A stretch of 25,594 nt of DNA from a virus: IMG/VR virus record IMGVR_UViG_3300007346_000199, positions 1-25,594 of that record; one strand, 5' to 3'. The notes beneath the pieces are model-generated. The model did no database searches, was not told the DNA's origin, and saw nothing but the letters and a program-made list of their open reading frames with translations. Position 1 is the first letter of the stretch. Every line of letters begins with the position of its first letter. Below, piece by piece: positions 23,549-25,594 of this stretch. Position numbers and translations under genes: made by a program.

Positions 23549-24022
23549 ATGATAGACCCCATTACCGCGGTCGGTCTCGCCACCTCTGCTTTTAATATTT
23601 TAAAGCAGGGCCTTAGCGCGGGAAAGGACATCCAAGAAATGTCTGGCACTCTAGCAAAGTGGGGTGCCGCGTTTTCTGATTTCCAGTACGCCGAACATCA
23701 AGCCAAAAACCCTCCTTGGTATAATTTTAAAGGCTCTGATGCTGAAAGCGCGATTGAAATATTTGCGCAGCGCAAGAAGATGGAGGCCATGCGCAAGGAG
23801 ATCAAGGAATATATTTCGTGGAATTACGGTCCTTCTGCTTGGGATGAGGTTCTTCAGATCGAGGGAGAAATGCGCAAACAGCGCAAGCAAGACCTTTACC
23901 GTAAAGAGGAGTTCAAACGTGCGGTTATTGAGTGGACTCTAGGCATACTTATTGCCACTTCTGCTGCCGCTGCTGTAACTTTCATACTTTATCATTGGGG
24001 TAGATATCAGGGGCGTTGGTAA
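23549..24022 (+). CDS. Membrane-anchored phage protein of unknown function, 157 aa
   Basis: The N-terminal region is mostly helical and soluble (MIDPITAVGLATSAFNILKQ, LSAGKDIQEMSGTLAKWGAA), followed by AIEIFAQRKKMEAMRKEIKE and YISWNYGPSAWDEVLQIEGE, then a basic stretch and one C-terminal membrane segment (127-149, LGILIATSAAAAVTFILYHW). I recall similar sequences in marine phage genomes, without a known role. The start follows GAGAGGTAA and directly abuts the previous stop. The topology (soluble head, C-terminal anchor) suggests a cytoplasmic domain tethered to the inner membrane within the lysis cassette. Confidence 0.7.
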   Translation: MIDPITAVGLATSAFNILKQGLSAGKDIQEMSGTLAKWGAAFSDFQYAEHQAKNPPWYNFKGSDAESAIEIFAQRKKMEAMRKEIKEYISWNYGPSAWDEVLQIEGEMRKQRKQDLYRKEEFKRAVIEWTLGILIATSAAAAVTFILYHWGRYQGRW

Positions 24023-24186
24023 TGTGGTTCTTAGTCTGGTTCATGTTTACAAATAACAAGCTAGAGCACTATCAGCTTGCTCAGTTGCCGACAGAGATGG
24101 AGTGCAACGAGGCGCTTGAAGACGCCAAGGTTCTAATAACTAACAGCACAACGGTAGTATATTGTTTTGAGGTTATACCAGAATAA
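24022..24186 (+). CDS. Small hydrophobic-start protein, 54 aa
   Basis: A coupled ORF (TAATG) encoding MWFLVWFMFTNNKLEHYQLA and then PTEMECNEALEDAKVLITNS and VVYCFEVIPE. It has a short hydrophobic N-terminus (residues 1-9) and two cysteines (C28 and C48) that could form a disulphide if the protein is exported. The pattern suggests a small secreted or membrane-attached protein. I do not recognise a named family. Its place in the membrane-protein run before the holin-like gene suggests a lysis-related or envelope role. Confidence 0.6.
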   Translation: MWFLVWFMFTNNKLEHYQLAQLPTEMECNEALEDAKVLITNSTTVVYCFEVIPE

Positions 24187-24292
24187 GAAGGGTGATTACG
24201 TTGTGTATGACAAAAACGGAAAAGTTGTTATAATAACCCACCACAAAAGCCATGCACTTGAGTATGCAAGGAGTATAGAAGATGCCGAATGA
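24167..24292 (+). CDS. Small hypothetical protein, about 41 aa (start uncertain)
   Basis: The frame is open from 24158 to the TGA at 24290-24292. Its product contains a convincing beta-hairpin, KKGDYVVYDKNGKVVIITHH, then a helix KSHALEYARSIEDAE. The best-supported RBS (AAGAAGGG) points to GTG 24203, giving 29 aa, but that would cut off the first strand of the hairpin. TTG 24167 keeps it and is preferred for that reason. It overlaps the preceding ORF by 20 bases and the next by 11. A candidate promoter lies inside it. Confidence 0.4.
   Translation: MRLYQNKKGDYVVYDKNGKVVIITHHKSHALEYARSIEDAE
24207..24234 (+). promoter_or_regulatory. Candidate promoter before EF-hand/holin genes
   Basis: ATGACA (24207-24212), a 16-base spacer, and a perfect TATAAT (24229-24234) preceded by TG plus one base (extended -10). 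The start point would be near 24241, about 40 bases before ATG 24282. It overlaps a small possible coding sequence, so it could be chance. A separate lysis promoter here would make sense. Confidence 0.35.
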
Positions 24293-24611
24293 GTATGATC
24301 TGAACGGGAACGGAAAGATTGATCCAGTTGAGCATGAAATCATGCTAGAAGATCGTCGTCGCCGAATGGAAGACGCAGACGCCAAGAGAGACGCACAGAG
24401 GCGCATGACGTGGTTTGCGTTGTCTGGTATGATCCTTTACCCTTTGGTCATCCTAGTGGCTTCTGTGGTGGGTTTAGACACCGCTGCAAAACTGATGGCT
24501 GAAATCGCAGCTGTGTATGTAATTGGCGCTTCAGGCATTGCTGCAGCGTATTTTGGTTTTAACGCAATGGAGAGTAAAAATGCTTCAAGCTCTGATCGGT
24601 CCAGTAGCTAA
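24282..24611 (+). CDS. EF-hand-type membrane protein in lysis region, 109 aa
   Basis: The N-terminus contains a complete EF-hand-like loop, DLNGNGKIDPVE at residues 6-17, with ligand positions D6, N8, N10, K12 (backbone), D14 and E17, the calcium-binding pattern also used in dockerin-type loops. It continues into a charged helix (MLEDRRRRMEDADAKRDAQR) and two membrane helices (44-64, WFALSGMILYPLVILVASVV, and 72-93). A Ser-rich tail follows. AAGGAG lies 7 bases before the ATG. Topology resembles small holins or pinholins with an added Ca-binding head. Whether it binds calcium is untested. It overlaps the following holin-like gene by 32 bases. Confidence 0.75.
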   Translation: MPNEYDLNGNGKIDPVEHEIMLEDRRRRMEDADAKRDAQRRMTWFALSGMILYPLVILVASVVGLDTAAKLMAEIAAVYVIGASGIAAAYFGFNAMESKNASSSDRSSS

Positions 24612-24963
24612 CCTTGCGGGGTCTTGGCTTCAAGGCAAAGCTGACAAGAACGCTGCCGCTGCCGAGTTAAAGTTAACCGAGGCTAAAGCCAAGGCACAGA
24701 TACTTCTTTCTGAAAAGACTAGCGTTGCTGATTGGGAGCGCATTATGGCCGAGGGCGCCAAGTCCTCATGGAAAGACGAGTGGTTCGTAATTGTGCTGTC
24801 AATCCCGTTGATTTTAGCTTTCATCCCCGGTGCAGAAGGCTGGGTAGATCGTGGGTTTGAACAGCTTTCCAAAGCGCCGGACTGGTATTTTTATTCGTTA
24901 GGTATCGCGATAAGCGCCAGCTTCGGTGTGCGGGGTGCGCAGGCTTTGTTTAAGAGGAAGTGA
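24580..24963 (+). CDS. Holin-like membrane protein, 127 aa
   Basis: A helical, Ala/Lys-rich cytoplasmic N-terminus (residues 1-60, KADKNAAAAELKLTEAKAKA) is followed by DEWFVIVLSIPLILAFIPG (67-84) and a second membrane helix (103-120, WYFYSLGIAISASFGVRGA) with a basic tail (LFKRK). Two membrane segments, small size, a basic C-terminus and adjacency to an endolysin match phage holins, and this DEWFVIVL-type sequence is often labelled a holin in marine phages. ATG 24580 is chosen; the longer open frame from 24523 lies inside the preceding gene. Its stop overlaps the next gene (TGATG). Confidence 0.75.
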   Translation: MLQALIGPVANLAGSWLQGKADKNAAAAELKLTEAKAKAQILLSEKTSVADWERIMAEGAKSSWKDEWFVIVLSIPLILAFIPGAEGWVDRGFEQLSKAPDWYFYSLGIAISASFGVRGAQALFKRK

Positions 24964-25328
24964 TGGAAAACCTCAAGTTACCTGTGGCCCTTGTGGCAGC
25001 TATGGCCGTGCAGCTAGCGGCGGGTGTTTGGTGGGTCAGCCAGCAGGCGGCTACCATTGCCAGTCTTGAGGAGACTGTAGGTCAGATCGGTTCCAAGATG
25101 GCGATTGAAGACAACGTGAACCTGAAGCGGGACGTTCAGGACAACGCCATGGAATTGAAATATGCTTTCGATGAGATTGAAGAAATTTGGGATGAGTTGG
25201 CTAACTTAGCTAATTCGATTGGTCAGGTGACGCAGTTGCAGAAACGAGTGGCTCTGATCGAAAACGATTTGAAATACATTAACCGTGACCACAATGGGAT
25301 CATGGACATGAAAGGCGGAATGGAATGA
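24963..25328 (+). CDS. Spanin-like coiled-coil membrane protein, 121 aa
   Basis: One N-terminal membrane segment (7-25, PVALVAAMAVQLAAGVWWV) and then a long coiled-coil periplasmic region (ATIASLEETVGQIGSKMAIE, LKYAFDEIEEIWDELANLAN, LQKRVALIENDLKYINRDHN). This is the topology of an inner-membrane spanin (Rz-like), though no Rz sequence signature is visible and no o-spanin lipoprotein lipobox was found nearby. It is flanked by the holin-like gene and the endolysin gene and overlaps both (TGATG, ATGA). Spanin function is inferred from topology and position. Confidence 0.6.
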   Translation: MENLKLPVALVAAMAVQLAAGVWWVSQQAATIASLEETVGQIGSKMAIEDNVNLKRDVQDNAMELKYAFDEIEEIWDELANLANSIGQVTQLQKRVALIENDLKYINRDHNGIMDMKGGME

Positions 25329-25594
25329 CTTTTAAACTATCACAACGCAGCCTTGACCGGATGGAAGGCGTAGACGAGCGGTTAGTAGCCGTCGCAAAAG
25401 CAGCTATCGGGCACACAAAAACCGACTTTGGTGTAATTTGTGGACTAAGAACCATCGGAGAGCAGCGTGAACTTGTCAAAAAGGGCGCATCGAAAACGAT
25501 GAAGTCCAAACACATTGAGGGCCGCGCTCTTGACCTTTTAGCCTATGTTGGCTCGCGTGGATCGTGGGAATTGAATTTGTACGATGACCTTGCG
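25325..25594 (+). CDS. Peptidase M15 endolysin (3' truncated by window end)
   Basis: Ninety codons of an M15-type peptidase, the zinc D,D-carboxypeptidase / L-alanyl-D-glutamate peptidase fold used by phage T5-like endolysins. Visible motifs: LVAVAKAAIGHTKTDFGVI, CGLRTIGEQRELVKKGASKT with R42, and the zinc motif SKHIEGRALDLLAYV with H63 and D70. The third ligand (a C-terminal His) and the catalytic Glu lie past the window end. There is no signal peptide, as expected for a holin-dependent endolysin. The start overlaps the preceding stop (ATGA). This is the likely main lysis enzyme, distinct from the SleB-type hydrolase at 1457-1909. Confidence 0.85.
   Translation, partial: MTFKLSQRSLDRMEGVDERLVAVAKAAIGHTKTDFGVICGLRTIGEQRELVKKGASKTMKSKHIEGRALDLLAYVGSRGSWELNLYDDLA

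Follow-up and report, generated by a model that had tools for sequence, protein, structure and literature searches.

The EF-loop gene and its neighbours in the window

The window, that is, the whole stretch of DNA analysed, is a virus record of 25,594 bases. On its plus strand, positions 24282 to 24611 encode a protein of 109 amino acids, here called the EF protein, with an ATG start and the sequence AGGAG 8 bases upstream of it. Residues 6 to 17 (24297 to 24332, plus strand) form a canonical EF-hand loop, DLNGNGKIDPVE, assigned from family conservation, codon comparison and profile matches in the PDB; its key residues D1, N3, N5, G6, I8, D9 and E12 are each permitted at their EF-hand positions. 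A charged exit helix follows (residues 18 to 43; 24333 to 24410, plus strand), in which basic and acidic residues are both abundant, and it runs unbroken into the first membrane helix within a predicted helix of residues 15 to 63. The membrane hairpin was placed by hydropathy and a structure model at 24411 to 24569 (plus strand), with helices at about residues 44 to 63 and 66 to 96. The first observation of a preliminary description of this DNA, a complete 12-residue EF-hand loop ahead of two predicted membrane helices, was thereby confirmed. Because only MPNEY precedes the loop, the window protein consists of a loop and an exit helix and not of a full helix-loop-helix, and with 14.1 bits it lies under the curated cut-off of 25.4 bits for the Pfam EF-hand.

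A scan of all six frames found the strict loop pattern once in the window, at DLNGNGKIDPVE. Among the other distinct ORFs at the first 253 related loci, the pattern occurred in none of 1319 with 60 to 200 amino acids and in one of 2654 of any length. Pattern rarity in the neighbouring ORFs and uniqueness across the six frames rule out a chance origin of the loop. Its preservation by an overlapping gene is ruled out on the upstream side, where a 41-codon ORF stops at 24292 and the loop starts at 24297.

This 41-codon ORF (24167 to 24292, plus strand) has a TTG start, overlaps the start of the EF gene by 11 bases and is kept beside it in 81 of the first 253 loci. The ORF before it (24022 to 24186), with 54 amino acids and without a match in PHROGs or Pfam, is kept at a length of 54 to 56 residues in 63 of those loci. 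Further upstream, a phrog_32327 protein of 157 amino acids with one C-terminal membrane segment (23549 to 24022, plus strand) is repeatedly found upstream of the EF gene; 18 phage records match it at E up to 1, and its recurrent places are beside the EF gene or close to terminase genes. At one locus (L216), a phrog_32327 relative follows the EF gene. An obligatory partnership of phrog_32327 with the EF protein was not supported, since in CRP-345 and CRP-9 the two genes are separated, and since it also occurs in phages such as CRP-2 and CRP-5 that are without an EF match by tblastn.

The stop codon of the EF gene falls inside the next gene (24580 to 24963, plus strand), with an overlap of 32 bases, in agreement with the overlapping gene run described earlier. 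The product of that gene, 127 amino acids long, belongs to phrog_2524 (E 4.8e-32), and we label it a candidate 3TM-type holin. The adjacent holin-like gene of the preliminary description thus exists as a candidate, but phrog_2524 carries no holin or other functional label in PHROGs, Pfam or NCBIfam. It occupies the holin position at many related loci and in HMO-2011 (gp58), and may be regarded as a candidate holin family. Next comes a protein of 121 amino acids with an N-terminal membrane segment and a helical tail (24963 to 25328, plus strand), a candidate inner-membrane spanin by our own label, with no spanin label in the libraries searched. The M15-type endolysin that follows (25325 to 25594, plus strand; phrog_465 endolysin, E 3.2e-33) is cut by the window end.

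Family members and their distribution

Of 50,697 phage records searched by tblastn, ten were matched at E up to 10, and in eight of these the match spans at least 80% of the query. We also scanned viral contigs and genomes with patterns, taking the best 80 loci per scan, and added annotated phage regions. At least 421 loci were collected and the family ORF was present in at least 417 of them, although these counts are not counts of independent events because some contigs were fetched twice (for example L001 and L088) and many are near-identical. By nearest profile, the 417 loci fell into clade A (window-type, 252, including the T4-like marine members), clade C (CRP-9 type, 82), clade D (82, with Limnohabitans phage DC31) and clade E, which is phiN3. 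Carriers of the family are tailed phages, T4-like ones among them, whose hosts are marine and freshwater bacteria and Sinorhizobium. In the loop-bearing isolate copies checked, the protein is annotated as hypothetical.

The 417 loci hold at least 308 distinct family ORFs, and 303 of the 308 contain the strict loop. Two of the remaining five are cut by contig ends and one is masked at D1. The fourth, from phiN3, has the loop DLDGDGKIAENE with alanine at position 9, and the fifth is DC33, a weak relative (tblastn E 0.7) with a hairpin and no loop.

Conservation of the loop and similarity to EF-hands

Conservation was measured on 305 intact distinct ORFs with no filter for the loop, leaving out L039 and L246 (contig ends) and L248 (masked at D1). 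The loop was present in 304 of the 305. The conservation of its ligand residues, whose absence would have refuted the claim according to the preliminary description, came out in favour of that claim: position 1 was D and position 12 was E in all 304 aligned sequences. Position 3 was N or D, position 5 was D or N with one S, position 6 was G in 303 of 304 with one N, position 8 was always V, I or L, and position 9 was T, D or S apart from one E, one G and the A of phiN3. Substitutions at these key positions are thus almost all between ligand-type residues, and positions 2, 7, 10 and 11 are highly variable. The 20 columns with the best conservation all showed substitutions except D6 and E17, which are loop positions 1 and 12. 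In alignment A2, which took only loop-bearing sequences and served as input for the structure model and the PDB profile, the invariance of these two residues is partly by construction. Relative entropy averaged 3.07 over the seven key positions, compared to 2.09 over columns 6 to 95, and 0.3% of 20,000 random draws were as high. W44 and Q39, outside the loop, outrank loop positions by this measure, though with substitutions.

Some of the back-translated scan patterns cover part of the loop, and one pattern sufficed to collect a locus. Among the loci found by loop-free patterns, the loop occurs in 88 of 90 distinct ORFs and the other two are cut or masked. The closest group comprised 79 sequences in 60 nucleotide haplotypes; its seven key codons showed synonymous variants and zero amino acid changes, and the other 81 sites averaged 1.69 amino acids.

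A profile built from loop-bearing members matched PDB entries with a best E of 3e-8 and calmodulins at about 1e-7. There were 401 distinct sequences at E up to 1, and the 60 matches listed comprised calcium-binding proteins, calmodulins and one calmodulin-based sensor. Pfam EF-hand_1 was weakly matched, at E up to 1, by all 14 members of set A1 and EF-hand_5 by 12 of the 14. One family member (L122) clears the PF13202 cut-off as a single sequence, with 29.7 against 25.9 bits.

Structure model and membrane topology

Hydropathy gave two membrane segments in the window protein, at about residues 41 to 64 and 66 to 96, and 303 of the 305 aligned family members passed a lenient two-segment test. 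The structure model, of moderate confidence (pLDDT 75, pTM 0.40), has helices at residues 15 to 63 and 66 to 106. The first of them begins at the end of the loop and continues as membrane helix 1, and an entering helix is absent. The low-confidence model of clade D has, in addition, a short entering helix (residues 10 to 14) and, within the loop, a bridge residue. A fold search of the PDB returned two matches, the best with E 8.3, and one of a viral library returned a single match below 0.001 (A0A516M8G9, E 6.5e-5).

The mean number of lysine plus arginine residues, by clade, was 3.9 to 6.3 before helix 1, 0.7 to 1.0 between the helices and 2.0 to 2.4 after helix 2. By the positive-inside rule, these counts predict that both ends of the hairpin, and hence the loop, lie in the cytosol. 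Because acidic residues ahead of helix 1 are as numerous as basic ones in clades A, C and D, this predicted orientation follows from the lysine and arginine counts by themselves. A loop placed as predicted would meet outside calcium only once the membrane leaks; calcium is about 10 mM in seawater and about a micromolar or less in the bacterial cytosol. The rationale given in the preliminary description, lysis timing in calcium-rich seawater, is weakened both by this predicted cytosolic location and by the presence of the loop in a freshwater Limnohabitans phage and in phages of Sinorhizobium.

Gene neighbourhood across the family

The context was scored within 2.5 kb at the 345 of 417 loci with more than 1.5 kb downstream. 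As lysis-type we counted relatives of phrog_2524 or PF11351, M15, GH19 or GH108 endolysins, and u-spanin-like and Rz-like genes. Such a gene lay near the EF gene at 248 of the 345 loci, relatives of tail-hub, gp51 or tape-measure genes lay near it at 62 (none of these three at the other 283), and 35 loci showed neither context. The two contexts never occurred together (0 of 345). Removal of identical copies left 302 loci, with 212 in a lysis context, 57 in a tail context and 33 in neither. The location in a lysis cassette proposed earlier therefore stands for most loci, but T4-like relatives lie between tail-hub and tape-measure genes instead. At a few loci (L137, L151, L155, L247 and L216, 5001 to 5811), the EF gene sits amid unrelated genes.

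Individual phages illustrate the lysis context. CRP-1 has the order phrog_32327, a basic protein of 85 amino acids, EF gene, M15 endolysin and u-spanin-like gene, and CRP-345 the order 85-residue basic protein, EF gene, spanin2 family and endolysin. In HMO-2011, a phrog_32327 relative is followed by a basic protein of 79 amino acids, phrog_2524 (gp58), a small ORF and a lysozyme, and the EF loop is absent from the genes checked in that region. The basic gene of 79 to 85 amino acids was judged by eye to be common to these three phages, and the slot after it holds phrog_2524 in HMO-2011 and the EF gene in CRP-1 and CRP-345. This swap is the best hint that the two proteins may have a common function. 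CRP-810 has the EF gene, then PF11351 (GTA_holin_3TM, E 2.5e-20) in the place of phrog_2524, then GH108. The alignment between phrog_2524 and PF11351 covers only 30 N-terminal columns, with a probability of 47. In Limnohabitans phage DC31, the order is phrog_32327 relative, EF gene, Rz-like gene and peptidase, and in DC33 the loop-less hairpin, which is unannotated, overlaps the Rz-like gene, with the peptidase after it. Two loop-less membrane proteins were seen beside or just after phrog_2524, one of 69 amino acids in CRP-6 (L427, 2971 to 3180) and one of 37 in HMO-2011 (L426, 3720 to 3833). Their C-terminal segments are alike by eye, and the longer one matches phrog_10198.

The tail context is represented by HTVC008M, Melnitz and phiN3, with the order gp26, gp51, EF gene and a large gene in the tape-measure position, annotated as tape measure in HTVC008M. 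Cyanophages were compared through the hub protein, since the tape-measure query missed them. In S-SM2 and S-RIM14, no EF gene is annotated there and the small post-hub gene, labelled hypothetical and not gp51 in S-RIM14, directly precedes the large gene. These two phages, and the 283 loci without hub-type neighbours, indicate that the EF gene is not an obligatory member of the hub cluster. In S-H35 (L258, 4888 to 7377), gp51 is followed by 2.5 kb with no annotated genes, which may contain a tape-measure gene that escaped annotation.

Possible function of the EF protein

We consider it about an even chance (probability roughly 0.5) that the EF protein is a class-II-holin-like lysis protein, with a two-helix hairpin and a half-EF-hand, metal-binding head at its N-terminus. 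This reading starts from features evident in the sequences themselves, namely the loop, its strict conservation and its usual place beside lysis-type genes, and it takes the hairpin and its orientation as predicted. The protein would either make the membrane lesion or be required as a partner by the adjacent 3TM-type holin where one is present, and the loop would bind Ca2+ or possibly Mg2+. The loop-less hairpin of DC33, ahead of an Rz-like gene and a peptidase, was counted in favour of a lysis role. Searches of holin families gave the EF protein no significant match: the best in PHROGs was phrog_9284 (E 0.03, one of 14 members), Pfam Phage_holin_3_6 stayed below its cut-off in two members (L085 and L252), and NCBIfam assigned no holin to the window protein or to proteins P0006, P0008 and P0001. 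The calcium-responsive holin or antiholin envisaged in the preliminary description is thus partly supported, as far as sequence comparisons can indicate.

The main evidence against the holin-like reading, which leaves it unexplained, is the tail-cluster location in T4-like phages. A lysis role in these phages is possible for two reasons. T4-like phages do not always keep their lysis genes together. In addition, the portion of the Melnitz paper drawn on here names no holin for this phage, which carries the EF gene, and in that portion its authors propose that a curli pore might serve as a pinholin analogue (PMC9004378). The EF gene in the Melnitz genome may be a candidate alternative to the curli pore.

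How a holin-like EF protein might work can be outlined tentatively. Because the loop is conserved, predicted to be cytosolic and predicted to be directly coupled to a membrane helix, we suggest a calcium-gated holin, a somewhat doubtful proposal at present, in which a cytosolic EF loop wired to membrane helix 1 would turn the first leak into a cooperative, all-at-once opening. As long as the membrane is tight, cytosolic free calcium would be low, the loop would be empty or filled with magnesium, and the head would be held in a non-assembling state. The first leak would admit calcium, and the filled loop would cap the long helix and pair with the loops of neighbouring copies. The hairpins would then switch jointly to an open assembly, and the calcium step would make lysis abrupt and self-reinforcing.

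A loop that always holds Ca2+ or Mg2+ as a structural site, stabilising an oligomer without sensing, would be compatible with any role of the protein, and we regard it as plausible, if short of an even chance. An EF loop that lacks a paired partner is often a weak binder or has a structural role, which favours such a site, as does the retention of the loop in freshwater and Sinorhizobium phages, where outside calcium is different. However, the predicted cytosolic place of the loop, with its low free calcium before lysis, is unlike that of the constitutive calcium sites typical of secreted proteins; the direct connection predicted between the loop and the membrane helix would also suit a switch.

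Where a 3TM-type protein adjoins (phrog_2524 or GTA_holin_3TM), the EF protein could instead be its antiholin or timing partner, with the state of the loop setting the release of the hairpin. The two genes overlap in the window, the EF gene of CRP-810 directly precedes the PF11351 gene, and a phrog_2524 or PF11351 relative accompanies the EF gene in 100 of the 104 clade A loci with a lysis context; because of this frequent candidate, the holin in clade A is not necessarily the EF protein. Yet the libraries searched give phrog_2524 itself no established function, and clade C (0 of 76) and clade D (0 of 77) showed no 3TM-holin relative within 2.5 kb, so that an antiholin would be without a recognisable target in its neighbourhood. 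We judge this alternative unlikely. On the holin-like reading, the EF protein may suffice by itself in clades C and D and work beside the 3TM-type protein in clade A.

Other ORFs with two hydrophobic segments were sought at the 120 loci of clades C and D with 1.5 kb on both sides, and 67 of these loci had none. The exceptions in clade C were 27 loci with a u-spanin-like lipoprotein gene only, five with that gene and another ORF, and five with other ORFs, some of the other ORFs in this clade resembling further u-spanins. Those in clade D were six loci with a different two-helix protein of 80 amino acids, two with a lipoprotein gene and another ORF, and eight with other ORFs. The unassigned ORFs, at 20 of the 120 loci, look like chance frames for the most part. 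The 80-residue two-helix protein, which is holin-like, lies near the EF gene in six of 64 clade D loci checked, including L288, L289, L338 and L340; it and the unassigned ORFs count against the holin-like reading of the EF protein.

Least probable, and in our view distinctly so, is the reading that the EF protein, bound to the membrane, assists tail or baseplate-hub assembly or genome entry, and that it has the same role where it stands beside lysis genes: the gp26-gp51-EF-large gene order in HTVC008M, Melnitz and phiN3 and the tail context at 62 of 345 loci would fit it, but relatives of hub, gp51 or tape-measure genes are absent within 2.5 kb at all 248 lysis-context loci, S-SM2 and S-RIM14 lack an annotated EF gene between the small post-hub gene and the large gene, and in L137, L151, L216 and L247 the EF gene lies amid unrelated genes.

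How holins are triggered, so that numerous small membrane proteins breach the membrane together at a fixed time, is a long-standing problem, and a strictly conserved ion-binding head on a holin-like family would offer a defined and mutable trigger. If calcium gating is true, the EF protein would be a candidate for the missing holin of the T4-like pelagimyophages and methylophages.

Comparison with known systems

Class II holins of the S21 type, from lambdoid phage 21, have two membrane helices in an N-in/C-in arrangement and charged ends. The EF protein resembles them in its two helices, its predicted N-in/C-in topology, its charged ends and its usual place beside endolysin or spanin genes, but it differs in having an N-terminal EF-hand loop and no significant holin-family match, and it is known here from its sequence. 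It shares its cassettes with GTA_holin_3TM (PF11351, in CRP-810) and phrog_2524 (in the window), neither of which has an EF loop.

With calmodulin and the proteins of the Dx[DN]xDG motif, the EF protein shares a 12-residue loop and an exit helix; the words "phage" and "holin" are absent from the text on this motif (PMC3123361). As in paired EF-hands, loop position 8 is always V, I or L. Unlike calmodulin-type sensors, the EF protein has a single loop with no or a short entering helix, is fused to a membrane hairpin and occurs in phages. Among the matches listed in one open-access library, titles and abstract openings called no phage holin or hairpin protein an EF-hand, an absence that is not proof. 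PHROG 27150 (phiN3 gp119 and its relatives) likewise has an EF loop, a helix and a two-helix hairpin and is matched by the CRP-9 protein (E 5.2e-11); its member in phiN3 is set between gp51 and the large gene in the tape-measure position.
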